Positions 1-14,082 of a stretch of 64,000 nucleotides of DNA are shown here, in pieces. The stretch lies in NCBI GenBank assembly GCA_035516255.1, contig DATJAL010000016.1:1-64000 (forward strand), read 5' to 3'. A program made the translations under genes and the position numbers. The DNA is from Chitinivibrionales bacterium. GTDB lineage: Bacteria > Fibrobacterota > Chitinivibrionia > Chitinivibrionales > FEN-1185. The notes beneath the pieces are model-generated. The model worked only from the letters and a program-made list of their open reading frames with translations, was not told where the DNA came from and did not search any database. Positions within the stretch are counted from its first letter, which is position 1; each line of letters opens with the position of its first letter.

Positions 1-103
1 TGGTTTTCAGTGGTCGTAAAAGAAAATGTCCCGTGGTTATTTAAAAGGATCTACAAAACAGAACGGCTATTATTGAGAAATCATCGGGGTAGGGCGTTCT
101 TCC

Positions 104-229
104 CTATTCGAGTACCATGGATGCAATTTTTCCATAGCACGCGGTGTAGGATTGTCCGATGTCCCATGGTGCTTTGCGTTCGTATTGGTTTTCAAAATTT
201 CCCAAACACATTCCGGATTGCGGGTTCAT
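104..229 (-). pseudogene. N-terminal stump of a SAM-dependent methyltransferase
   Basis: A 41-codon frame starts 38 nt after the stop of the PEP-synthase-like gene, behind a strong AAGGAGG Shine-Dalgarno. Its middle reads FENQY....APWDIGQ, which resembles the N-terminus of small class I SAM methyltransferases (WDxxYxxxxxPWDIGxPQ). Homology then stops and the frame ends at TAG. The break coincides with a 24-nt sequence (119-142) that recurs beside the IS66 remnant at 11.5 kb. I infer the last gene of the lipid-type operon, truncated by a mobile element. The family call rests on one short motif. Confidence 0.5.
119..142. repeat. 24-nt repeat, possible IS terminus (left copy)
   Basis: This stretch reads GGATG, then AATTTTTCC and ATAGCACGC, and matches 11517-11540 at 23 of 24 positions. 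It sits where the methyltransferase stump loses homology, which suggests a mobile-element end or insertion scar. The element body would extend leftwards out of the window. The usual IS66 tip (GTAAGC) is not seen, so the IS family is not established. Confidence 0.4.
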
Positions 230-267
230 GCGCGCCTCCTTGCTGCCGCCAAAGCGGCATGCATCGT

Positions 268-2994
268 TTATACCGATTTTCCATTTTCGTCAAGCACTTC
301 CACAACCCCTGTCTGCCCGTCGAACCGCACGCGCATGCCGGTCTTGATGCGCCGGGTGAGGCCCGGTATGCCCACCACTGTGGGCAGGCCCATTTCACGC
401 GCCACTATTGCGGAATGAGAAAGCAGGCCGCCGCGTTCCACCAGCAGGCCGGAAATGGACGGGTACAGCGGGATCCAGCCCGGATCGGTGCGCATGGTCA
501 CCAGTATTTCGCCGTTGAGCTCCATGTCGTCGGACGGGTCGACTATCACCTTGGCCGTGCCCGCCACGCGGCCTGGGCACGCGCCCGTGCCCTTGAGGCT
601 GTTGGCGGCCGGCGGCGCTTCGGCCGGTGTGGCAACGGACCCGGTGCCCAGGTCGTTCTGCCAGTACACGGGCCCGCGCGTGACAAGGCGCGACGGCGGA
701 TTCGCGAGCGCGTACTGCACGTATTGTTCCTTGCGCGCTTGTATGAGCGGCCGGAGGTTCTGGCAGGTGAGGATGCCGTCAAGCGAGCCGGTGAGCTCGT
801 GGAGCTCGAGATAGAAAACGTCTTCCGGCCTGTCAATGATGCCGCGGAGCGTATAATCGTTGCCCACCCCGTAGAACATGGCGCGCGCCACACCGTAGAT
901 GCGGGTGCGGCAGAACCGCGTGTTTTCACGGTTGCGCACGGCCCGGCGCGTGTGGAACAGGGACCATTGGTATACGAGGCGCCGCGGCCCGCGAAGGTGT
1001 TTCCGCACGAGCGCCTCGGCCCGGCCGCGCACCTCTTCCTCACGTTTGACAAATGCGTCGAGGTCGGTGCGGCCCGCGCGCAGGTAGTTCTTGAGGCACA
1101 CGAACAGGAACGAGGGGTCCATGAAAAGGTCCTTCTGATCGAGCTTCATCTCGCTCATGCACCGGTGGCCGTATTTGGCGATGTACTCGTCCACCCGTTC
1201 CCCAAAGCCGGTGTGCGGCGATTGCCGCAGCGCCTCGAGGCAATCTTCGGCGGGCGTGGATTCGATGAGGCTGCAAAGGCTGTTCTCCGCGGCGGCCGCT
1301 CCCGCCATGCGGATGAGCTCCCGGGTGGGTTCGGCGGATTCGAGGCTGCCCGTGCCGCACAAAAGGTCGTTCGAGAGCGACGGCCCGAGCGCCGAAAGCC
1401 ATTTCTCCGTGAGCCTCTTGAACAGGCCAAAATGCACCATGGTGAGAAAATCGTTGACAATCGGCGCTTTCCACTCAAGCAAAAGCCGTTCTTCCAGCTC
1501 CTGGTACAGGCCGTAGATTTCGTCGGCCGGCATGCGGCCGTAGTCTATTCCGCGGTATTCGGCATACACCCGGTTGAAATAGGCGAGGAACCGGTTTATC
1601 ATGCGCTGCGCCGTGACATGGAACCAGAGGAACTTGAGGCCCGAGAAAAGCCGTTGGATTTTGGAGAATGGCGATTCCTGGAAACCGGGCGGCTTGATGC
1701 GGTTTGCGATTTCGTCTGCGAGCTTGTGCGAAGTGCCCATCATGATCTCCATAAAACCCCGGTTGTGCCTGAACCCGGGGAGTATGGCACCGGTGAGCCG
1801 GTACCAGTTCAGGATGTTGTAATACACGCGGCCGTAAATGAGCCCGATCATGTGCTCCAGGAACGGCTGCATGGCGCGTATCTTCTTTGCCGGCACCATC
1901 ATGATGTCGCACAGTTGTACATACACCTGATGGTACACGTGGTGCGCGAACCCGAACGTGAGCGGCAGGGTGAGCCCGCCGTAGCTCTCCACAATGTTGG
2001 AATTGTCCCATATGTGAAGCTTGCCTTGGGCCGCGAAAACCAGGGTGGTGACGGGCCGCGCCTGCAGAATGCGGAAACCGCCCTGCTTGGTCCATGCCCA
2101 TTCAACATCCTGCGGGAAGCGGAAATAGGATTCGATGCGCTTGCCAAGACGGCACAGTTCCGAAAGATCCTTTTCGTCAAGACAGGGCGCGGATTGCAGG
2201 TGCGGCTCCACCGCAGCCTCGATGACCCCGCCGCCGGCCTTCCGGCGCAGGCATTTTCTCTTGTCATTTATGGTGGCGGAAACGGCCCTGTCGGAGTCCT
2301 TTGAAAGCACAAAGGTGTCGGCGTCGAGAAGACCGGACACCAGGCCTTCGCCCACGCCGTACACGGCGTTCACGGTGATTTTTGAACCGTCGGCGGCAAT
2401 GGGATCGCAGGTGAACAGCACCCCGCTTTTCTCGCTGTCAACCATTTCCTGGAACACCACCGCGATGTCGAGCCCGCCGGATACGGGGATGCGGTTCCGC
2501 ATCCGGTACGCCAGCCCCCGGGCCGAAAATCCCGATGCCCAGCACTCCTTGAGAAAGCGGAGCGCGTCGTTCTCGCTTGTCACATATAAAAAACTCGACA
2601 GCTGGCCCGCAAAGGAATGCTGCGCCGAATCCTCGTCGCCCGCGGACGACCGCACCGCGATGAGCGGCGCCCCCAGCGTGCGGTACGCCTGCCGCGCCTC
2701 CTGTTCCACTTCCGGAGGAAAGGGAGTGTTCACGATGATCTCGCGGACCCCGGCCGACACGGAATCGCACAAGGGCGCCGCAGGCGTTTCTTTACATGCA
2801 AGAAGAGGCGCCAGCGCTTCCTGCAGGGACGGCTCGAGCCCGGCCAGCTTTTTGAAACGCCGGAACACGTCCGTGCCGAGCACTACCCACGGCGGCACCG
2901 GGATTCCCTCGCGGGACATGAGATAGAGGTTGTATCCCTTGCCTCCGGCTTCGCGCCGCGCGAACGAGGGGGTGCTTTGCGGGGTGACCAGCAT
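268..2994 (-). CDS. PEP-synthase/rifampin-phosphotransferase-like ATP-dependent phosphotransferase
   Basis: This is a 908-aa member of the PEP-utilising enzyme family. The N-terminal ATP-grasp (PPDK_N) region spans about residues 8-320, with AVRSSAGDEDS near 115 and SGVLFTCDP near 200, ending in QARPVTT. The swivelling phosphohistidine domain is at the very C-terminus, GGLLSHSAIVARE, with the catalytic His at about 860. True PEP synthase places that His domain before a large PEP-binding barrel. Here the order is ATP-grasp, a large middle domain (starting near NIVESYGG), then His, as in rifampin phosphotransferase. The family moves the ATP beta-phosphate through the His to a small molecule; the acceptor here is unknown. 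It starts 45 nt after the UbiA stop behind AGGAGA, as a late gene of the operon. Confidence 0.85.
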   Translation of the reverse strand: MLVTPQSTPSFARREAGGKGYNLYLMSREGIPVPPWVVLGTDVFRRFKKLAGLEPSLQEALAPLLACKETPAAPLCDSVSAGVREIIVNTPFPPEVEQEARQAYRTLGAPLIAVRSSAGDEDSAQHSFAGQLSSFLYVTSENDALRFLKECWASGFSARGLAYRMRNRIPVSGGLDIAVVFQEMVDSEKSGVLFTCDPIAADGSKITVNAVYGVGEGLVSGLLDADTFVLSKDSDRAVSATINDKRKCLRRKAGGGVIEAAVEPHLQSAPCLDEKDLSELCRLGKRIESYFRFPQDVEWAWTKQGGFRILQARPVTTLVFAAQGKLHIWDNSNIVESYGGLTLPLTFGFAHHVYHQVYVQLCDIMMVPAKKIRAMQPFLEHMIGLIYGRVYYNILNWYRLTGAILPGFRHNRGFMEIMMGTSHKLADEIANRIKPPGFQESPFSKIQRLFSGLKFLWFHVTAQRMINRFLAYFNRVYAEYRGIDYGRMPADEIYGLYQELEERLLLEWKAPIVNDFLTMVHFGLFKRLTEKWLSALGPSLSNDLLCGTGSLESAEPTRELIRMAGAAAAENSLCSLIESTPAEDCLEALRQSPHTGFGERVDEYIAKYGHRCMSEMKLDQKDLFMDPSFLFVCLKNYLRAGRTDLDAFVKREEEVRGRAEALVRKHLRGPRRLVYQWSLFHTRRAVRNRENTRFCRTRIYGVARAMFYGVGNDYTLRGIIDRPEDVFYLELHELTGSLDGILTCQNLRPLIQARKEQYVQYALANPPSRLVTRGPVYWQNDLGTGSVATPAEAPPAANSLKGTGACPGRVAGTAKVIVDPSDDMELNGEILVTMRTDPGWIPLYPSISGLLVERGGLLSHSAIVAREMGLPTVVGIPGLTRRIKTGMRVRFDGQTGVVEVLDENGKSV

Positions 2995-3039
2995 TGGGTT
3001 TCTCCTGTTCGGAATTGCTATTTTATTCTACCAATAAAA

Positions 3040-3972
3040 TCACCGCAAGGGCGCAAAGGCAGCAAACAGAACCGCCAACCCGGCGAACACCACGATAATG
3101 AACACCGACGATGCCACCCGAAAGATATGCGCAACTGTTCCGCGGTTGGACGCCGCGTACACGATGCCGGCTCCTGCAAGCAAGGCGCTGCAGAACCACA
3201 AAAAAACGGGGGTAGCGGGACGGGGTGTCCCGCTCATACACGGGACCACCGCTGCCGTGATTGCAGCCATTGCAACCGAAAGCGCCGCGGCCCCATAGCG
3301 GCCGAAAATGCTCGAATACGAATCGATTCCAGGCCGTTCTTCGAAGGTTGCGTAGGTCTTTCGGCCGAATTCAAAAATATTGAACATACACCAGTTTGCA
3401 AATGCGAAAAGGAATGCACTGCGGGTTTCCTGCCAGAAAAACCGCCCGTGCAGCGTTGAAAAAAGTGCAAGGGAGAGGATCGCGCTCACCAAGGTGTGTG
3501 ACACCGCATACGTGGTGAGATGCGGACGGAGGATTGGGCCGATGAAGAATTCCTTGTACATGAGCAACGAATAGACGATCGCCACGGCAATCGCGCATGC
3601 TGCCTGCTGCGATACCAGGCCGAAGGCCGCCAGTTCCACAACGATGCACGCAACAATGACGCACTTGAGTTCTGCAATGGTAACAAGGCCGCGCGCAAGC
3701 GGCCTTGTGGGTTTGAATTTCCTGTCAACCTCGTAATCTTTTATTTCGTCATACACACGAAGTTTGAAAAAAAACGCGGCCGTGCCGATAGACAGGGCAA
3801 CGATGGCGCCTATGGAGTGAACAACAGCGCGTCCGCCCAAGCGCGCGGCAAAGAAATGGCACGCCACAAAGAGCGTTATCATGACAAAATGGGAAAGCGG
3901 GTTGAAGCGCTCCAGGGCGAACCTGGGAAGGCGCTGGAAGAAAGGGTGCGATTGTTCGTCGCTATTGTTCAT
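3040..3972 (-). CDS. UbiA-family prenyltransferase
   Basis: This is a 310-aa polytopic membrane protein. UbiA enzymes transfer a prenyl group from a prenyl diphosphate to an aromatic ring or an alcohol. The first Asp-rich motif is clear (YDEIKDYEVDRKFKPTRP, a D-x3-D-x3-D pattern). A weaker second motif is near PGIDSYSSIFGR. About eight hydrophobic helices follow. I chose ATG 3972 because AGGAG lies just upstream; this start overlaps the end of the acyl-ligase gene by 11 nt, which suggests coupled translation. The N-terminus (FNPLSHFVMITLF) is not that of UbiA or MenA proper, so the acceptor cannot be assigned. Confidence 0.85.
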   Translation of the reverse strand: MNNSDEQSHPFFQRLPRFALERFNPLSHFVMITLFVACHFFAARLGGRAVVHSIGAIVALSIGTAAFFFKLRVYDEIKDYEVDRKFKPTRPLARGLVTIAELKCVIVACIVVELAAFGLVSQQAACAIAVAIVYSLLMYKEFFIGPILRPHLTTYAVSHTLVSAILSLALFSTLHGRFFWQETRSAFLFAFANWCMFNIFEFGRKTYATFEERPGIDSYSSIFGRYGAAALSVAMAAITAAVVPCMSGTPRPATPVFLWFCSALLAGAGIVYAASNRGTVAHIFRVASSVFIIVVFAGLAVLFAAFAPLR

Positions 3973-5683
3973 GCAGGATCTCCTGTTTAAGCACCTCATA
4001 TTCCACCTTGCTGTGGTGTCGCGGGTCCATGGGTATGGCTTTGCGGAACATCACCGCATCAACCGGCATGCTGTTTTTTCTCATGACGCGTTCGACCTCG
4101 GCTGCCATGCGGGCTTCCTTGGCCGCGTCACCCACGGCGCTTGCATCCGTGGGCACGATCACGCATATGCAGCGCTCGCCGAGTACGGGATCGGGCAGGC
4201 CGAGAAAGGCGCATTTGACAACAAAGGGAAGTTTCTTGAGCGCAATCTCGGCGCGCACCGGGAACACAAACGTCGCGCCCCGTTGTATCACGTTGTGTAC
4301 CCGGCCCACCAGCCACAGGTACCCTTTGGCGTCGATGCGTGCAAGGTCGCCGGTGCGGTGCCAGATTGTCCCGCGCTCGTCGCGGATCTTGGAACGTGTG
4401 AAGGCCTCTTCGTCGTTCACATAGTCGCGACACACATGTTCGCCGCTCACTGCAAGTTCCCCCACAGTGCCGGCCGGAACCTCAAGCAGTTTCCAGTCTT
4501 CTTGTGTTGAGATCGTGATTGGGCCTTTGGTTATGGTGAGGAATTTTGCGGAAAGACCGGAAACCAGATGGCCCACGTTGACGCCGTCGTCAACCAGTTC
4601 CGGATCGGCCGCGGCGCCGCCTTCAAAAGAAAGCATGTCTTTCGCCTCGATATGCGCAATGGGCTCTACTTCGGTGGAACCGTACAGCACCCACATTTCC
4701 GCGCTGGGCGCAACCGCTACCAGGCGTTTTACCTGGTCGCGGCTGACGGCAGCGCCGCCTGCAACCACGCGACGGATTGACTGAAGCGAAATGCCGCGGC
4801 CCTGGCAGAACGATGAAATCTCGGACAGCAGCCAGGGGTTGAGCGTCATGCAAGTAACGCCGCATGCCTGTATCTGCGCCAGAAGCACGGCCGCGTCGTT
4901 TTCGCCCGGCGTTCCCGCGTCGATGGCGGGCAGCACCGTGCTCACGCCCGCGGCGATGTTGTTGAGGGAAAAGATGGGGAACAGGGGAAGGTCAACGTCG
5001 GACGCGGCATAGGGCATGCCCGCGTCGATGGCATAGTGCTGCGCCGCCAGAAACCGGTGCGTGCGGTTGGCGCCCTTGGGTTTTCCCGAGCTGCCGGTTG
5101 TGAAGGTGATGAGCGCGGTGTGCTCTTGCTCAACCGGCACCGGCGCAGCCCGCCGCGGCGCGGCAAAAAGCTGTTCCAGCCCCGCCGCGTACTGTTTTTT
5201 TGCCGGCCCGAACACGATGCGCAGCGGAAGGGCGGCCAGTACCGGATCGCCTTCGCAAAAGTCAAATGCCTGCTCGAAGCTGATCATGCCCCGTGCCTGC
5301 GCGATCTGCACGGCAACGCCGAGCTGGCCGCGCCGCGCCCACGAGTCGAGGAACACAGGCACGGCGCCGATCATTTGCAAGGCGGACATGGCCGTATACA
5401 TCGGGACCGACATGGGTAGAAACAGGATGACGCGGTCGCCCGCATGCAAGCCGAGCTCGAGAAACCCGGCGGCCACGCGGCGGATGCCGTCCACAAATGG
5501 TTCGAGGGTTATGGCGTCGTGCACGAGCGGACATTCCGGTAACGCCGCCCATTTTTCCAGGGTAGGCCGCGCAACCCAGCGCAGCACGGTGAAGCCGGGC
5601 CGTTCCGTCAGGTGCTTTTCGAGAAAGGAGAATACATTGTTCTTGACATGCGCGCCCGTGTAGTAGCCGATTTTTTCCGCCAT
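3962..5683 (-). CDS. AMP-forming acyl-CoA ligase / ANL-superfamily enzyme
   Basis: This 573-aa adenylate-forming enzyme carries the phosphate-binding motif LITFTTGSSGKPKG (about 191-204). It also has the A5-like GSTEVEPIAHIE, WHRTGDLARIDAKGYLWLVGR around the hinge, and a C-terminal HHSKVEY segment holding the likely catalytic Lys. The family activates a carboxylate as acyl-AMP, usually for CoA transfer; OleC-type ligases instead close beta-lactones. Substrate is not predictable. ATG 5683 has GAGGAGG five bases upstream and is preferred to the TTG one codon earlier. Nothing resembling acyl-carrier or thiolase genes lies nearby; the neighbours are prenyl- and head-group-type enzymes. Confidence 0.85.
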   Translation of the reverse strand: MAEKIGYYTGAHVKNNVFSFLEKHLTERPGFTVLRWVARPTLEKWAALPECPLVHDAITLEPFVDGIRRVAAGFLELGLHAGDRVILFLPMSVPMYTAMSALQMIGAVPVFLDSWARRGQLGVAVQIAQARGMISFEQAFDFCEGDPVLAALPLRIVFGPAKKQYAAGLEQLFAAPRRAAPVPVEQEHTALITFTTGSSGKPKGANRTHRFLAAQHYAIDAGMPYAASDVDLPLFPIFSLNNIAAGVSTVLPAIDAGTPGENDAAVLLAQIQACGVTCMTLNPWLLSEISSFCQGRGISLQSIRRVVAGGAAVSRDQVKRLVAVAPSAEMWVLYGSTEVEPIAHIEAKDMLSFEGGAAADPELVDDGVNVGHLVSGLSAKFLTITKGPITISTQEDWKLLEVPAGTVGELAVSGEHVCRDYVNDEEAFTRSKIRDERGTIWHRTGDLARIDAKGYLWLVGRVHNVIQRGATFVFPVRAEIALKKLPFVVKCAFLGLPDPVLGERCICVIVPTDASAVGDAAKEARMAAEVERVMRKNSMPVDAVMFRKAIPMDPRHHSKVEYEVLKQEILHEQ

Positions 5684-5705
5684 CAAAGCCTCCTCGTTGC
5701 CTGGA

Positions 5706-6455
5706 TCAGAGTATCATACCTTTCTTTTTCAGCGCCGCCACCTCGCTTCGGGATTTCGGGGTCCGCGCGTATGTCGCGCGGTCGTCCCTGTTCGGTATTC
5801 CTTCGGGAAGAGAATCCTGCTCCGCGATTTGGCCCAAAAGCGCCGCAAGCGCCTCGCCTTCCTGCCTGCCGGTCTTCGACAGGTAGGCCACATAGTCTTT
5901 TTCGCCTAGCGCGGACACTTCTTTACGGCAAAGAATCCTGCCGTCGTCCAGTTTTTCCGACATCACATGGATGCTGAAGCCGGCCGGCCTGTTGTCGGCA
6001 AGCGCGTACAGGTCGCACATGGTGCCGCGAAACCGGGGCAGAAGGCCGTGGTGGATGTTGATGCAGCCCAGGCGCGGCGCCGTCAGCAGCGGCTGTTTGA
6101 ACAGGCAGCGGGTGCGCATGTTCACCACGAGGTCGATGCGCTCGCGCCGGACAAGGTCGATAACCTGCGTTTCATTGGCATCACGGGCGATAATCACCGG
6201 TTTTTGCAGAGAGCGGAAGACCGCAGTGCGGCGGTCGAACATGGCGCAAAACAGGTTGGCCGCAAACACCCGGCCAAGCCGGGGTGCGCCCAGCAGGAAC
6301 AGACCGGCCGCCTTTTTAACAAGGGAGAAATCGAGGTTGTTGAGCATGAGGAGACCGTGCACGTGATCGGCTGCGCCGGCGAGAACGGCCTCAAGCGCGT
6401 CGCAGTAGTTGTGCGGTACATAGGTGACCCGGCTTGTTGCCAGCAGCGTTTTCAT
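5706..6455 (-). CDS. Formyltransferase of the Fmt/PurN-like fold
   Basis: This is a 249-aa protein, shorter than methionyl-tRNA formyltransferase (about 310 aa) and lacking its C-terminal OB domain. The catalytic triad of the fold is visible: Asn133 and His135 in CINIHHGLLPRFRG, and Asp170/171 in EKLDDGRIL. The family moves a formyl group from 10-formyl-tetrahydrofolate to an amine, such as an amino sugar, Met-tRNA or glycinamide ribotide. ATG 6455 overlaps the upstream stop as ATGA; a longer in-frame extension exists but is antisense-like junk over the upstream gene. In this operon an amino-lipid or amino-headgroup substrate is plausible, by inference. Confidence 0.8.
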   Translation of the reverse strand: MKTLLATSRVTYVPHNYCDALEAVLAGAADHVHGLLMLNNLDFSLVKKAAGLFLLGAPRLGRVFAANLFCAMFDRRTAVFRSLQKPVIIARDANETQVIDLVRRERIDLVVNMRTRCLFKQPLLTAPRLGCINIHHGLLPRFRGTMCDLYALADNRPAGFSIHVMSEKLDDGRILCRKEVSALGEKDYVAYLSKTGRQEGEALAALLGQIAEQDSLPEGIPNRDDRATYARTPKSRSEVAALKKKGMIL

Positions 6456-7840
6456 TTGAGCGCGGCCCCTGTGTCGATATTGTAGAACCACACCGAAGCC
6501 GCAAAAAGCAAAACCGTCACCAGCGCGGAGACGAGGGCGGTGAACCGGAGAAAGGTCATGTCGCTCCACGTGCCGCGCTTCCTGCGCTCCACAAACCAGT
6601 ACACCAGTTCGATGGCGATGGTGCCTGCGGCCGTTGCGCCGATGGTAAAAGGCGCGGACAAACGCGGGTCGAGGAGGACCGTCGGTACGGCGAACACCAG
6701 CGTGAGTGCTAGGGCGCGCACGCAGCAATGCGCGTTCCGCAGCCATAGCGGCAGGGGGAGCCGGTAGGGATGGCCGGTCATCCGCGCCCGCCGCTGCCAA
6801 AGAATGCCGAAATTGGCGGTGATGTTCGTGACAAAGGAGACAAACGCGGCATTGCGGAACGGCGCGTTTATTCCCGCCACAACGGTCCATGCAAAGGACA
6901 CAAAGAGAAGATAGAACACCGGCCTGATGCGGTACACGGTGTCAACGGTCGGACCTTCCTCTATAAAGATATCGAGCGTGGTGAAGAGCGCGATGCCCAC
7001 TACCACCGGCACAAGCCATGCCGGACCGCCGTACATGAGCGCCGCGTAACCGGTGAGTGCCAAGCCGATAATCGCCGTGATGCCGAACCGTTTGAACCGC
7101 CGCGACAGAAGATAGACAAGCGCGAAAAGCGACGCCACGGCCGTGATCCGGGCCGCAAGGGGAAAAATGCCCTTGTCCGCCACCCGTTGCAGCAGCACGA
7201 TGGTGCCCAGCGGGATAAACAGGTTGTCCGCGCCGCCCAGGGAAATCGACTCGAATGCGGTGACGAGCAGGCTGCAGTACACCGCCATGAGCACCGACAC
7301 GGCGCGATCCACGGGAGAAAGCAGTAGGAGGCAGAGATGAATGATGATAAACGTGGCGAGGAAAAAGAACACGGAGCCTTCAAGGCTTTTGTGATGTTCC
7401 TCCACGATATACACCTTGAACCCGTACCGCCCGCCCACGAGCGCGGCGAGCGAGTCGGAGACCGCAAGCACCAGAATGCCGATGAGGTAGAGGTCGGGCC
7501 GGTGAAAGGCCGAGGAGAGCACAAACGACACGTACACGGCTACCGGATAATACAGGCTGCCCTGCGATTTCCGCTCCACGCCGTGGATGGAGGGGAGCAG
7601 GCCAAACCGTTTTGTAAAGACCATGATTGCGACAAACAGGAAACAGAGCGTAAGCACGGTCCAGTGCGACCGTAACAGATAGGAGAAGCCGAGGCATATC
7701 GTGCCGCACGAAAAATGGACCAGTTTCCTGGTCGCCTCCTTTGAAGGCCTGCCCAGAATGCGCCAGAGTTCCGCTGCCGCAAACACCAGCAGGAACGCGC
7801 CGCTCACGATGCACGCAGGGATTAGGTCGTGGTGAATCAT
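6452..7840 (-). CDS. Dolichol/phytol-kinase-like CTP-dependent membrane kinase, extended
   Basis: This 462-aa polytopic membrane protein has an N-terminal half carrying hallmarks of the dolichol kinase/phytol kinase/CTP-diacylglycerol kinase family: KLVHFSCG near 40, GVERKSQGSLYYPVAV, AVSDSLAALVGGRYG, HHKSLEGS and ADNLFIPL. Members phosphorylate isoprenoid alcohols or diacylglycerol using CTP. The C-terminal half (about 215-462) adds several membrane helices and may resemble the DUF92/VTE6 prenyl-phosphate kinase family, but that is only a weak impression. Its start and stop both overlap neighbours as ATGA. Beside UbiA, a kinase feeding a prenyl (di)phosphate to the prenyltransferase is reasonable but unproven. 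Confidence 0.75.
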   Translation of the reverse strand: MIHHDLIPACIVSGAFLLVFAAAELWRILGRPSKEATRKLVHFSCGTICLGFSYLLRSHWTVLTLCFLFVAIMVFTKRFGLLPSIHGVERKSQGSLYYPVAVYVSFVLSSAFHRPDLYLIGILVLAVSDSLAALVGGRYGFKVYIVEEHHKSLEGSVFFFLATFIIIHLCLLLLSPVDRAVSVLMAVYCSLLVTAFESISLGGADNLFIPLGTIVLLQRVADKGIFPLAARITAVASLFALVYLLSRRFKRFGITAIIGLALTGYAALMYGGPAWLVPVVVGIALFTTLDIFIEEGPTVDTVYRIRPVFYLLFVSFAWTVVAGINAPFRNAAFVSFVTNITANFGILWQRRARMTGHPYRLPLPLWLRNAHCCVRALALTLVFAVPTVLLDPRLSAPFTIGATAAGTIAIELVYWFVERRKRGTWSDMTFLRFTALVSALVTVLLFAASVWFYNIDTGAALK

Positions 7841-8955
7841 CGGTTGACCGTCCGGTCAAGATGAAAGCGCTGGTAGAAAAACGCCCGGTCGCGCATGAGG
7901 AGCTCCTGCGCGCGTGCCCCATCGGCGCAAACGCGGCCGGGGAAACGTTCGGCAAGGCTGCGCGACACCAGCATGTTCCAGTATGCAAGGCGTGCGCCCG
8001 GGCGCGCACGGGAAAGCAGGTCTGCGGCCGTGCTTTCGAACAGCGACGAGTCCATGTATTCAAAAATGTCGGAGAGGTTGAATGCGTCGAACCCGTCGCT
8101 GTATGCCGCGCAGGCTTCCTGCGCGGTGCCGCGGAGAATCTTGAGATGGTCAATGTTGCGCCGGATCGCCTCGAAGTTTTCCGCCCGGGCATAATGCGGC
8201 AGCGCGTTGCCAAAATTGCCCAAGGCGATATAACGGAGATACGGGTTGTCGTGGGTGGACAGCTCGGTTACCGCATGGCGCGTGCGGTTCATTACCAGGC
8301 CGGCAATGGAGCCTTTCACATACCGGAAAAACTCGGGGTCGCGGCCCAGCCTGCCCATCACGAATTTGGAGAAAAAAACGTTGAACAGCAGGTTCCAGCG
8401 CCGGTTGTTCCAATGGCGTTCGTAGAATGCGACGCGCTCCTCCCTTGTCTTGGGTCGCAAGAGGTCGTTGAGGGTCTTTTGCGAGTGGACAAGCGGCAAT
8501 ATCACGGTCCTAAACAGCCGGAAATATCGTTCGAACTTGCCGCAATGGATGAGACCGGACCGTAGTGACGCCAAGTTCTTTTCCCAGAACGCCCTGCTTT
8601 CTCCGGACAATAGCGGCGCAAGCAGTTCGAACCGGTCCAGACGCATTCCCGGCGAAGAAGACGTACCAGTAAAACCGAGGAATTCAAGCATCACGGGGTG
8701 CGAAAAATGAACAAAGCACCATTTTTTGATTTCGACGCACGCGACTTGCGCCTTGCTTATGTCAACCGCCACCACGAGGCGCGGCCCCCGGGAGAGGAGC
8801 GAAAAAGAATTGTCGCCCGCCGAGGCGATGGAGAGACAGGCGTCGGCCGGCCCAGGGGCAAGCGCATCGAGTAAAACGTCCGCGTCTTCCCAGCAGTTGG
8901 CATACCGCACGAGATCGAACGACGCGCGCGTTTGGATGGCGCTGCTCCCGGTCAT
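7837..8955 (-). CDS. DUF3419 family protein (BtaA-like 3-amino-3-carboxypropyl transferase)
   Basis: This 372-aa protein shows the DUF3419 pattern: VRYANCWEDADVLLDAL near the start, a SAM-binding segment SIASAGDNSFSLL and VVAVDISKAQ, and FNLSDIFEYM towards the C-terminus. The characterised member BtaA transfers the 3-amino-3-carboxypropyl group of SAM to diacylglycerol, the first step of betaine lipids. No BtaB-type methyltransferase domain is fused here, but a methyltransferase stump lies at the distal end of the operon. ATGA overlaps at both ends place it firmly inside the operon. Its acceptor could be diacylglycerol or a prenyl lipid. Confidence 0.85.
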   Translation of the reverse strand: MTGSSAIQTRASFDLVRYANCWEDADVLLDALAPGPADACLSIASAGDNSFSLLSRGPRLVVAVDISKAQVACVEIKKWCFVHFSHPVMLEFLGFTGTSSSPGMRLDRFELLAPLLSGESRAFWEKNLASLRSGLIHCGKFERYFRLFRTVILPLVHSQKTLNDLLRPKTREERVAFYERHWNNRRWNLLFNVFFSKFVMGRLGRDPEFFRYVKGSIAGLVMNRTRHAVTELSTHDNPYLRYIALGNFGNALPHYARAENFEAIRRNIDHLKILRGTAQEACAAYSDGFDAFNLSDIFEYMDSSLFESTAADLLSRARPGARLAYWNMLVSRSLAERFPGRVCADGARAQELLMRDRAFFYQRFHLDRTVNR

Positions 8956-10229
8956 GCGGACCCTTTCTGCCGGCCGCGTCTGCGGGCAAGGAGCTGGTGC
9001 GCCCGTGTGAATTCCCCTGTTGTCAACGCGGCCGTTATTGAAAGCTCGCCCGCGAGGCAGACGGCGGCCGCCACCTCGGCAAACGCCCTGGCGCCGTTGT
9101 CACCCGGACAATTTAAAATCGACAGGCAGGCCTGCTGCGTGGGAAGGCCGGTGCCGCCTCCCACGGTTCCCACCATGAGGTTGGGAAGGCTCACCGAAGC
9201 GTACAATCCGCCATCAACCGTCTCCATGCGGGTGAGTCCCACTGCGGATTCGGCTACGCATGCCGCATCCTGGCCACAGGCCAAGTACAGCGCCGCAATG
9301 CTGTTTGCATAATGCCCCTGGAGCCCGATGGTCCCGCTCAGGGACCCGCCAGCGGCAGAGATCCGGCCGTAGGCCGCCATGTCCGCAGCCGTGGTCCTGA
9401 AGAATTCCTTTATCACCCTGTCGGGCAGGCTGACCTCAACCGTAACTTTTTTGCCGCGCACCGAATGAAAGGATTGGAACGATGCCTTCTTGTCACCGGA
9501 CAAGTTCGCTTCAACATAGGAGCGTAATGGTTTGACCGGGCATTCCCTGAGGATGAATGCCCACACCGCTTCGGTGGCTATGGTCACCATGTTCTGGCCC
9601 GATGCGTTCCCGGTGAGATATTCAAAGGAAAGAAAGACCTGGTTCCCATCGATCGTGGTCTTCATGTCGGCCAGAACGCCGTAACGGGTGGTGGCGGCGG
9701 CCTGGACGCGGAAGTCGTCGAAGTGTTCATTTACCCATGCGACAAAGGTGCCGGCTTCAATCATGGAGCCGAACACGAACCCCGGCGACCTGCTCACGCC
9801 CTCGCCGACCACCATGGCCGTGCACCCGCCCGCTGCGGTGATGGCGCGCGAGCCCCGGTGGTACGACGCCACGAGCGCCGCCTCGGTGGTGGCGAGCGGC
9901 ACCAGATAGTCTCCCTGCGCAAACAGCCCGTTCACGCGCAGCGGCCCGGCAAGCCCCACCGGCACCCGCACGGTGCCGACGTAGTTCTCGATATTCTTGA
10001 CGTATGCGTCGTGAAGATCGGTACTGTGGCCGTCGGCGAGCATACCGGCCTGCTCCTCGGACAGGCCGGTCATGGCAAGGCGCTGTTTCATGAGCGCCAG
10101 CGAAGAACCCTTGGGCAGCACCGCCGCCGGCCCGTGCTTGGGGGACAGTTGCACCATGAGCTCCGCAATGGAGCGGCTGGAAAAAAGCTGGGACAGGTAT
10201 TTCTTCACGAACTGCATCGGTTCGGACAT
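8952..10229 (-). CDS. hmgA: Class I-type HMG-CoA reductase
   Basis: This 425-aa enzyme reduces HMG-CoA to mevalonate with two NAD(P)H. Diagnostic segments are ENYVGTVRVPVGLAGPL, PLATTEAALVAS (catalytic Glu116), LSGDKKAS (Lys247/248), ALYLACGQDAACVAES (Asp321), VGTVGGGTGLPTQ, and a C-terminal His411. Together these match the class I (eukaryote/archaea-like) form rather than class II. It is the first gene of the operon; GGAGA lies upstream of ATG 10229. No other mevalonate-pathway gene is in the window, and an MEP-pathway gene (ispD) is present at 42.2 kb. The reading is confident; the physiological role is not. Confidence 0.93.
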   Translation of the reverse strand: MSEPMQFVKKYLSQLFSSRSIAELMVQLSPKHGPAAVLPKGSSLALMKQRLAMTGLSEEQAGMLADGHSTDLHDAYVKNIENYVGTVRVPVGLAGPLRVNGLFAQGDYLVPLATTEAALVASYHRGSRAITAAGGCTAMVVGEGVSRSPGFVFGSMIEAGTFVAWVNEHFDDFRVQAAATTRYGVLADMKTTIDGNQVFLSFEYLTGNASGQNMVTIATEAVWAFILRECPVKPLRSYVEANLSGDKKASFQSFHSVRGKKVTVEVSLPDRVIKEFFRTTAADMAAYGRISAAGGSLSGTIGLQGHYANSIAALYLACGQDAACVAESAVGLTRMETVDGGLYASVSLPNLMVGTVGGGTGLPTQQACLSILNCPGDNGARAFAEVAAAVCLAGELSITAALTTGEFTRAHQLLARRRGRQKGSA

Positions 10230-10508: not shown

Positions 10509-11078
10509 GGTAATGCTCCTTTTCATGGGGTATGAAGTCATTCTCGATTTCCTTATTGCCTCACAGGATGTGAGGCAATTCTCATTCTCGCCACTCTTGA
10601 TATCGTCTTGCTGCATTCAGCCCAACCGGATGTTGCGCCCAACTCTGTGCTTTGCGCACCATGTTCACATATTTAATAGCAGGTCTGGCACCTTGGCACC
10701 AAGTTCTCATGCACCCCTCATTCCGGTATTGTCGGAACCTTGTTCGTATTTTGTCTGCAATTGGGCGAATTTAATATCCTTTGTTGGACCTCAAGGAGTG
10801 TGATGAACTTTCCACCAACGAGAGAATACGCCAGATTCCCTGCCATTGGGCGGTTGTTGTCCGTACGAAAAAATTCATGGACGTCAACTCATGCAGGTGA
10901 TGTACATTGTCCTTACCAGATAACACAGGCTCTCACATAAAATCAGTTCATGCACTTTGTCATAGCAAGGGTATTGCATCAGCATCGCAGGAAGCGGCTT
11001 TACGCTGACAATCCCACGCGGGTTCAATGCCCAAGAAGTAAAAGCTCTTTTATCCATTATGTCGGCAAGGGAAGCTTG
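10509..11078. other. AT-rich decayed intergenic DNA
   Basis: No convincing gene is visible. The short open frames here have no Shine-Dalgarno, no family signature and poor composition. The stretch lies between the truncated propeller gene and the IS66 remnant and probably holds degraded transposon DNA. Confidence 0.5.
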
Positions 11079-11357
11079 ATGCTGACCTTTTCACCGGCAG
11101 TGCGGATATTTGTCTGCTGTGAACCTGTGGATTTACGCCGCACGTATGATGGGCTTTCTGGTCGCGTCGAGTCACTGCTGCACAACGATCCGCTAAGCGG
11201 CCACCTGTTTGTGTTTTTCAATAAGCGCCGCAACCAGGTGAGGATTCTCATGTGGGATAGAACCGGATACTGCTTATTTGGTAAGAGGCTTGAGCGGGGG
11301 CGTTTTGTAATCGGCGAATGTACGTCTTCAAAAGGTTGTGGACAGAAGATTGTCTAA
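11079..11357 (+). pseudogene. IS66-family TnpB (Orf2) remnant
   Basis: A 92-codon frame from ATG 11079 has the typical IS66 Orf2 sequence: a start near MLTFSPAVRIFVC, then EPVDLRRTYDGLSG, DPLSGHLFVFFNKRR and ILMWDRTGYCLFGKRLERGRF. Intact TnpB is about 115 aa; here homology ends after ERGRF and the tail is unrelated. No intact TnpA or TnpC (the DDE transposase) is visible on either side, so the element cannot transpose by itself. It marks this AT-rich island as an insertion site. Confidence 0.8.
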
Positions 11358-11781: not shown

Positions 11782-12876
11782 TTATTTGATTTTTAGGATA
11801 TAATTATTCCCATTGACATTAATAGATTTTTGCAGCATTAACGCACCGCGCGATTGCGTTATGAGCCGGCCTAGTATGTCATAGGTTCCCGTCTTCTTCT
11901 GAGGTTCCGCAGAAACCACCCTGGCAATCACAGGTGCTGCCTCAACCGGCGCATTAAAAGCCTTGAAGATGGTCAGATATGACTTATTTGCATCGGCATC
12001 CATGGCCCAGAACGCCAGAAGGCCGATATAGCTGTTCTCATTGGCATAATTCAGAACTGCCTGCGCATTCGCCGTTGTGAAGTTTTCGCATGACACGTCG
12101 TTGACGCCGATCATGGGCGTGATGCCGATTCTGGATGAAATGCCCAAGTTGTTCAACTGGTCGTGCGTGTTGGTCGCCGCGTTGATCGCGGCCTGGCCCA
12201 TGTCGATGTTGCACGCGCCGTAGTCCATTGCCATGACATTGACAATATCCACCTGCACGCCGTTCGTCTTGGCGTTCGAGAGCAGGTTCAGGCCGTCCTG
12301 GGTGAGTCCTTCGGGCATGACCGGCAGCGTGTAGGAGACCTTCAGGCCCGGGTTTGCCGCCTGCAGGTTCTTGAGCGCCTGGTTGCGGCGGTCGATGGCC
12401 GTCGCATCCGCGATGAACGCTCCCTCAATGTCAAGATCCATCCATTTCAAGCCGTATTTCGTGATCACCTGCTGGTACGCGGCCTGCAGCGCGGTTGCAC
12501 TGGTGTATACCTGGGCAAGCTCACTGCCCGACGCGCCGCCAAAGGAGATGATCACGTCCCCGCCCTGCGCCCGCAGCGCCGCGATGTCGCTCACGTATTT
12601 GTCGTCGCTCATGGGCATGGTGCCGTCCCAGTACGGCGCGCTGTTCGCCGTACCGTTGGAAATAATAAAGGCGAGCGTGTAGAATTTATTGCCCGTGCTG
12701 GTCGCCAGGCTGGACACGGACAAGCTTCCCCAACATTCCACGTACGGGGCGCACACCTTGCTGGGAAAATCGTTGGTGCTTTTTAAGGCAAAAGGATCCG
12801 CGCAAGGTCCTGTCCGTAAAAGTGCCGCAAAGCATAAAATCATAATCGACATACCAAGGATTTCCTCCCTTTTCAT
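11782..12876 (-). CDS. Secreted GH18 chitinase-like protein with C-terminal sorting-like domain
   Basis: This 364-aa protein starts at ATG 12876, with AAGGAGG six bases upstream; the 13-codon upstream extension lacks a ribosome site. A signal peptide covers about residues 1-24. The GH18 active-site pattern D-x-D-x-E is present in KWMDLDIEG, preceded by VIISFGGASGSE. GH18 enzymes hydrolyse beta-1,4-GlcNAc links using substrate-assisted catalysis. The last 40 residues (GTYDILGRLITQ...NGNNYILKIK) resemble the C-terminal signals of type IX-secreted FCB proteins. It is the second gene of a two-chitinase operon, 45 nt after the first. Confidence 0.85.
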   Translation of the reverse strand: MKREEILGMSIMILCFAALLRTGPCADPFALKSTNDFPSKVCAPYVECWGSLSVSSLATSTGNKFYTLAFIISNGTANSAPYWDGTMPMSDDKYVSDIAALRAQGGDVIISFGGASGSELAQVYTSATALQAAYQQVITKYGLKWMDLDIEGAFIADATAIDRRNQALKNLQAANPGLKVSYTLPVMPEGLTQDGLNLLSNAKTNGVQVDIVNVMAMDYGACNIDMGQAAINAATNTHDQLNNLGISSRIGITPMIGVNDVSCENFTTANAQAVLNYANENSYIGLLAFWAMDADANKSYLTIFKAFNAPVEAAPVIARVVSAEPQKKTGTYDILGRLITQSRGALMLQKSINVNGNNYILKIK

Positions 12877-12921
12877 GATTTTCCTCCTTGTTTTAAAACT
12901 AGAAAAACCGGGCATTGACAG

Positions 12922-14082
12922 TTATTTGACCGTTATCATGCCGGCCTCGGTGCTCACCTGCGTGGACATCCTTACAACATAGGATCCCGGGCTGATTGAT
13001 ATGCCCGAGCAGTGGCTGCCCAATACAATAGTATATACCGGTCCCGCGTCGCGCATACCAAGGGCCAGATTTCTCACCAGGACGCCGTTTGCGCTGAAAA
13101 GGCTCAGGTCCACGGCCTGGGCCGACGGCACCGAATAACGAATTTCGCTCTGCCGCACCCCGTTGTTTACAATAGCGAACATTGCCTTCTGCCCGCGGTG
13201 CGCGGCGGCAAGCGGCAGGGGCGCTATCCCCGTGGTCATCTTGTTCACATAGTATGCGGTGACGCTGTCGCACGGCTCCGGCGCGCGATCGATCTCCCAC
13301 ACCATGATGCCGCCGCACCCGTTGTTGATCGAATACAGGCATTTGGCGTTGATGTCCGCGGGGTTCCCGTTGGGGCCGTTGCCGCACTCGTTGGGGCCAT
13401 CCACCTCGTTGTCGGTGTCGTATCCGTAGCCGATGCCGAGTTTACTCTTCGGAACGCCCTTGCCCGTGAACGCCGCGACCTCCTGCGGACTCGCGCTTGC
13501 CAGGTCATAATATGACATGATGTTCATCTGGTCCACGTACTGATATACCGGCGCGCTCACCGTGGAGTAGTAATCGGCCACCGCAGCGGTGAGCAGCGGT
13601 TTGGGCGTTATTTTCACCAGGGCGGTGTTCAGGCCCTGGAACAGGGCGAGATACCGGGAGGCCGTGATGCCGTTGCCGTCGTCTTCCCAGTCTATGTCGA
13701 TGCCGTCGAACCCGTTCGCCTGCATGAAGCTCACCATGCTGTTCACAAAGGTGTTCAGGATGGTCGCGTTTGCCGTTGCGGTTTCGAAGTTTGCGGCCGC
13801 TCCGGCGCCGCCCACGCAAATGACCGCCTTGGTATTATTCTGATGGCACGCGGTGGTAAAGTTTTTTGCGGTGGCCGCGTCCAGGCCGGTCACTGCACCC
13901 GAACTGTTTGCATTGATGGAAAACCAGAACACATGGGTGTAGCATTTCCAGTTTATCTTGGAAATGGGAAAATTGGCGTAGTTCGGTAGATATCCCGCGG
14001 ACCATCCGACGTATTTGCGCTGGCAGAACGCAAATGACCAAAGCAGAACAATCGTTAAGAAAAGAATTTGAAACTTTTTCAT
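12922..14082 (-). CDS. Secreted GH18 chitinase with C-terminal sorting-like domain
   Basis: This 386-aa protein has a signal peptide (MKKFQILFLTIVLLWSFAFC), the GH18 beta-1 strand YVGWSAGYLPNY, the SxGG-like ICVGGAG, and a canonical catalytic FDGIDIDWEDDG with the acid Glu. It should degrade chitin or chito-oligosaccharides outside the cell. The final ~90 residues form a beta-rich domain ending GSYVVRMSTQ...AGMITVK, like type IX sorting domains. GGGAGG precedes ATG 14082. It is first in the operon with the second GH18; the two are clearly diverged, so they probably differ in product or mode. Confidence 0.92.
   Translation of the reverse strand: MKKFQILFLTIVLLWSFAFCQRKYVGWSAGYLPNYANFPISKINWKCYTHVFWFSINANSSGAVTGLDAATAKNFTTACHQNNTKAVICVGGAGAAANFETATANATILNTFVNSMVSFMQANGFDGIDIDWEDDGNGITASRYLALFQGLNTALVKITPKPLLTAAVADYYSTVSAPVYQYVDQMNIMSYYDLASASPQEVAAFTGKGVPKSKLGIGYGYDTDNEVDGPNECGNGPNGNPADINAKCLYSINNGCGGIMVWEIDRAPEPCDSVTAYYVNKMTTGIAPLPLAAAHRGQKAMFAIVNNGVRQSEIRYSVPSAQAVDLSLFSANGVLVRNLALGMRDAGPVYTIVLGSHCSGISISPGSYVVRMSTQVSTEAGMITVK

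Follow-up and report, generated by a model that had tools for sequence, protein, structure and literature searches.

A widespread seven-gene bacterial cluster with an HMG-CoA-reductase-like enzyme and a possible role in the synthesis of a polar lipid

The operon and its products

The window, a 64,000-nucleotide stretch of contig DATJAL010000016.1 (GCA_035516255.1) from a Chitinivibrionales bacterium, carries seven intact genes on its minus strand between positions 268 and 10229 (Table 1). The layout described in the sequence-only reading, a one-strand operon of seven intact genes joined by three ATGA overlaps, one 11-nt overlap and, with the listed starts, remaining gaps of 22-45 nt, is confirmed in its coordinates by the list of open reading frames. 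Five of its identities (HMG-CoA reductase (HMGR), DUF3419, formyltransferase, AMP ligase and dikinase) are borne out by direct Pfam matches. The window's UbiA-like and dolichol-kinase-like (DK-like) proteins themselves match nothing in Pfam. PF01040 is matched by 33/35 UbiA relatives; the DK-like call is more tentative, with weak matches to CTP_transf_1 (PF01148) in 6/43 DK relatives and support from motifs.

Table 1. Features of the window and of loci compared with it (positions are those of the window unless a locus is named)
Feature	Position	Strand	Evidence or remark
HMG-CoA-reductase-like, class I type with altered HMG pocket; first gene	8952-10229	-	PF00368, 358 bits
DUF3419/BtaA-like, putative SAM 3-amino-3-carboxypropyl transferase	7837-8955	-	PF11899, 223 bits; Rossmann SAM motifs
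Dolichol/phytol-kinase-like (DK-like) integral membrane protein	6452-7840	-	ExxRKxxH motif; some relatives match CTP_transf_1
Formyltransferase domain protein	5706-6455	-	PF00551, 64 bits; N-x-H + Asp triad in alignment
Acyl-AMP ligase, PRK09274/OleC-like	3962-5683 (alternative TTG start 5686)	-	PF00501, 126 bits
UbiA-family transferase	3040-3972 (alternative start 3999)	-	relatives match PF01040
PEP-synthase/rifampin-phosphotransferase-like dikinase with swivelling His domain	268-2994	-	PF01326 + PF00391
Possible SAM methyltransferase start, cut off	104-229	-	41-aa ORF + stop, read directly
ORF resembling IS66 Orf2/TnpB transposase	10950-11357	+	by eye
Adjacent ORF pair resembling secreted GH18-type chitinases	11782-14082	-	by eye
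MFS + PlsC-type acyltransferase + AMP-ligase protein	L047 14644-18114	-	beside operon
Similar MFS-PlsC-ligase protein	L080 451-3870	+	Pfam-confirmed
More distant DUF3419, then GNAT-domain protein	L128 16481-18978	-	related genome; rest of cluster not in stretch

Window positions 1-141 are identical to the end of another contig of the same assembly (C51, reverse strand). Exact overlaps of this length (141 bases) typically arise where k-mer paths branch in an assembler, and this one probably reflects such a branch in the assembly graph. Because the contig edge is ambiguous, neither the methyltransferase stump with its stop codon nor the point at which the operon really ends on its 3' side can be judged. 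The transposase-like ORF immediately upstream of the operon may be a sign of the boundary of transferred DNA; the chitinase-like pair lies beyond it.

Comparison of the DUF3419 and DK-like sequences with the PDB gave no useful match. The AlphaFold model of the DUF3419 protein (pLDDT 94) matches mostly SAM methyltransferase folds, none below E 0.001, and that of the DK-like protein (pLDDT 93) has no significant match among PDB folds, CdsA (4q2e) being weak; the ExxRKxxH motif occurs in 60/61 DK relatives. The ligase scores 335 bits against NF006754, under the cut-off of 478, and a beta-lactone route of the OleC kind was rejected, given a score of 192 bits against an OleC equivalog cut-off of 900. 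Within the UbiA family the Asp-rich motif (D84, D88, D92) is invariant, and the best PDB match of the family profile, over partial coverage, is DGGGP synthase (6m31, E 1.3e-8). The dikinase exceeds the cut-off of NF004881 (1025 bits against 883), and its nearest solved relatives are 5fbs and 5hv1, which carry the label PEP synthase in their deposition and are known as rifampin phosphotransferase. It shares with rifampin phosphotransferase, RedH and PigC the ATP-grasp and swivelling His domains, the lack of a PEP barrel and, for RedH/PigC, end-to-end similarity, but differs from them in a diverged middle acceptor domain and in its partner genes.

Recurrence and variation of the gene set

A species-level genome collection yielded 553 relatives of DUF3419, of which the 80 best were taken with their flanks. 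Since greedy gene calling is unreliable in GC-rich loci, all locus counts rest on family-profile searches over open frames; as the loci were selected by DUF3419, the counts state how often the other families accompany DUF3419 and not the converse. The sequence-only reading had looked to relatives for conserved synteny, and the set recurs far beyond them: at least three further cluster families stand beside DUF3419 in 67/80 loci, DUF3419, UbiA, dikinase and ligase occur together in 53/80 (on a single strand in 45 of these 53), and all seven families, GNAT included, in 25/80. Many of the remaining loci are interrupted by contig ends. The seven-gene set is one conserved unit. Identities between cluster genes correlate with Spearman coefficients of 0.20-0.83, uncorrected for relatedness and lowest for DUF3419, the selection gene.

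More than 20 phyla are named by the record titles of the loci, mostly of metagenome-assembled genomes (MAGs) and including some isolates (Dyadobacter, Rhabdobacter roseus, Botryobacter ruber, Lentisphaerae WC36). A plasmid of the alphaproteobacterium Roseinatronobacter sp. S2 carries UbiA, dikinase, DUF3419, DK, GNAT and ligase genes in overlapping order, with a partial HMGR at the end of the record (tblastn). DUF3419 is absent from the sole other genome of the same genus that was searched. Given the plasmid copy and the genome lacking DUF3419, the cluster is likely mobile.

What lies between the DK-like gene and the ligase varies among loci. In profile searches over all loci scanned, a GNAT family occurs in 65 (58 of the 80) and a formyltransferase in four (the window, L014, L030 and L080), and the two were never found in the same locus. 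Such a GNAT is absent genome-wide from the window's own genome and from those of G065, L080 and L037, and is present elsewhere in the L030 and L081 genomes. Both families as a rule modify amines, and they are therefore best read as alternatives for N-acylation and N-formylation at one position. The earlier proposal of a SAM-derived amino group, formylated in the window variant, fits this gene anatomy, with N-acylation by the GNAT as the probable counterpart in most other loci.

Neighbouring genes of lipid type recur across the loci: CTP_transf_1, CDP-OH_P_transf, DAGK_cat, MMPL, SRPBCC and the MFS-PlsC-AMP ligase. MMPL transporters or SRPBCC proteins are added at several loci, and two Flavobacteriales hold CDP-alcohol transferase and CdsA-like genes within the operon. 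In three related genomes DUF3419 and DK are missing from a set that keeps HMGR, GNAT, ligase, UbiA and dikinase; in one of these genomes the set is preceded by genes of the CDP-alcohol transferase, DAG-kinase and CdsA-like types. The operon neighbours are lipid-handling partners, and the lipid product of the sequence-only reading sits well with them (lipid kinases, CdsA-like proteins with CDP-alcohol transferases, MMPL exporters). A large protein of the MFS-PlsC-AMP-ligase type adjoins the operon in seven loci, one of them confirmed by Pfam; it resembles the fused LplT-Aas of lysophospholipid recycling. The reductase is missing from the rumen and digester loci L043, L057, L067, L086 and L092, an absence checked genome-wide for L057 and L092 only, and most of these loci retain the kinases.

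The HMG-CoA-reductase-like enzyme

An HMGR is found in 18/26 cluster genomes, single copy in all but one, and 8/26 have none. Alignment of 37 cluster reductases indicates that E559, R590, D690, K691, K692, N755, D767 and H866 are retained in all 37, so that the mevalonate-type catalytic Glu559, Lys691, Asp767 and His866 are all present, together with most CoA and NADPH positions. In family, catalytic tetrad and cofactor residues the cluster reductase is thus like the class I HMGR of the mevalonate pathway. It is unlike that enzyme in two positions: Ser684 is replaced by Glu or Asp in 37/37 (Glu in the window protein), and position 735 is never Lys, the window protein included. Ser684 and Lys735 are residues of the HMG pocket (PMC7503714), and human, plant and archaeal HMGRs retain both. 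Glu684 may pair with the retained Lys692, and the substrate may lack the distal carboxylate.

The genomic context differs from that of the mevalonate pathway as well. HMG-CoA synthase was found above the cut-off in 0/26 cluster genomes, with six control genomes positive, and Dxr of the MEP pathway was found in 23/26. Given the lack of a synthase above the cut-off, the presence of the MEP pathway in nearly all of these genomes and the lost pocket residues, the reductase probably lies outside the mevalonate pathway. On these grounds mevalonate supply was rejected, and the sequence-only reading, in which the reductase would provide precursors of isoprenoids, is not supported. The protein probably reduces a different acyl-CoA, with an alcohol as product. 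Among 101 relatives, a close dikinase was found in 6/6 genomes with the altered HMGR versus 2/95 others and, conversely, the altered reductase in 6/8 genomes with a close dikinase versus 0/93 (Fisher p 2e-8, uncorrected for kinship).

A candidate lipid pathway and its alternatives

Taken together, the gene families quite possibly make a polar membrane lipid whose head group derives from SAM and is N-acylated or N-formylated and whose chain is attached by UbiA, with an acyl-CoA reductase of the HMGR type taking part. In the scheme inferred here, in every substrate, in the order of its steps and in its lipid product, the HMGR-like enzyme would reduce a hydrophobic acyl-CoA, rather than HMG-CoA, with NADPH to a primary alcohol, which the dikinase and the DK-like kinase would phosphorylate; a fusion of HMGR to an APH-type kinase in one deltaproteobacterial MAG suggests that the alcohol of the reductase is phosphorylated. 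UbiA would attach the activated alkyl or prenyl group through an ether or similar bond, proposed because its closest solved relatives are O-transferases and DGGGP synthase makes an ether. A homoserine-type head group would arise when DUF3419 moves the 3-amino-3-carboxypropyl group from SAM onto a hydroxyl; the amine of this head group would then be N-acylated by the GNAT in most genomes or N-formylated in the window. In one or other of these branches the AMP ligase would activate an acid. Given that HMGR is absent from 8/26 genomes and that three variants lack DUF3419 and DK, not every step is general; furthermore, the ligase is retained where HMGR is absent and so need not feed the reductase. 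Confidence in the lipid reading is moderate, and in the exact substrates of the proposed pathway low. It is more tentatively suggested that the product is a previously undescribed class of homoserine-head lipid spread over more than 20 phyla, for which the HMGR fold has been re-purposed as a hydrophobic acyl-CoA reductase feeding the UbiA donor.

UbiA enzymes normally require allylic diphosphates, and a saturated fatty alcohol would give none. This raises the possibility that the ligase and the reductase instead salvage a 3-methyl-branched acid (e.g. phytenic acid) as a prenol, that DK and the dikinase convert it to a prenyl diphosphate which UbiA attaches, and that the remaining genes build the head group; plant VTE5/VTE6 are the comparison for the conversion of prenol to prenyl diphosphate. 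Such salvage would supply a chemically competent UbiA donor and is in keeping with the DK family, to which phytol kinases belong, and with the rumen and digester loci that lack the reductase, most of them with kinases; however, gut origin and taxonomy are confounded in this correlation, and for many hosts no source of prenols is evident. This scenario is rather unlikely and, since a non-allylic UbiA donor would be unusual, it stays a serious rival.

Instead of a structural lipid of the membrane, the product could also be a specialised metabolite, namely a natural product containing a prenylated amino acid, given that the OleC-like ligase and the RedH/PigC-like dikinase are of types known from natural-product pathways, that the distribution is patchy and includes a plasmid copy, and that an AurF-like oxygenase adjoins one variant. 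This is unlikely for two reasons: first, the cluster is found very widely and its gene set hardly varies; second, its neighbours belong to lipid metabolism and export. A genuine HMG-CoA reductase, drawing on HMG-CoA released by leucine catabolism and making mevalonate as a building block or for additional isoprenoids, is an improbable reading of the protein. The strong similarity to class I HMGRs and the intact catalytic residues favour it, yet neither the absence of a synthase above the cut-off and the MEP pathway in 23/26 genomes nor the pocket residues lost in all 37 sequences agree with it. Moreover, in a Caldilineaceae genome without Dxr the HMGR that lies near a weak synthase match is another, class II-like one, and the altered type is encoded elsewhere. 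That unrelated genes of several known pathways came together by chance or only loosely, conceivable in that every family also exists alone elsewhere, is refuted by the synteny, that is, by overlapping genes conserved in genomes labelled as more than 20 phyla, and is opposed by the co-occurrence, uncorrected for kinship, of close dikinase and altered reductase (6/8 versus 0/93 relatives).

Three known lipid systems come close to the proposed polar lipid pathway. BtaA/BtaB of DGTS synthesis likewise involve a DUF3419 protein, a putative SAM 3-amino-3-carboxypropyl transferase acting on a lipid hydroxyl; the window protein is just 23-27% identical to DUF3419 proteins on rhizobial plasmids, and the cluster, unlike DGTS synthesis, has machinery for N-acylation or N-formylation, a reductase, UbiA and two kinases. 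As for a cluster-linked counterpart of the N-methyltransferase BtaB, no recurrent methyltransferase was recognised among the cluster neighbours annotated, which are part of all neighbours. The archaeal-type ether-lipid pathway (HMGR, GGGPS, DGGGPS, CarS, CDP-alcohol transferase) resembles the cluster in that DGGGP synthase, matched over partial coverage, is the nearest solved relative of the UbiA profile and some loci carry CdsA-like and CDP-alcohol transferase genes, but the cluster genomes lack the mevalonate entry enzyme above the cut-off. That pathway was rejected, GGGPS/PcrB being above the cut-off in 11/26 cluster genomes and not following the cluster. For the Myxococcus elb/AGPS ether-lipid genes, acid activation and acyl reduction towards an alkyl ether have been proposed (PMC9131029), as is proposed here; ElbD, however, is one multidomain FAR-ACS-ACP-acyltransferase, in contrast to the HMGR-like reductase and UbiA-like transferase suggested for the cluster.

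Each gene belongs to a known family, and the cluster as a whole falls within the definition of no known pathway tested. No description of it was found in the open-licence PMC papers searched (no preprints), and on these two grounds it is called new. A compact set found in many phyla and culturable hosts, with no description found, suggests that some metabolite or lipid common among bacteria has so far been overlooked, and the isolates that carry the set make this directly testable. If the HMGR-like enzyme uses another acyl-CoA, a textbook enzyme would have a second, unrecognised function, and the annotation of a bacterial HMGR would not be evidence for the mevalonate pathway.
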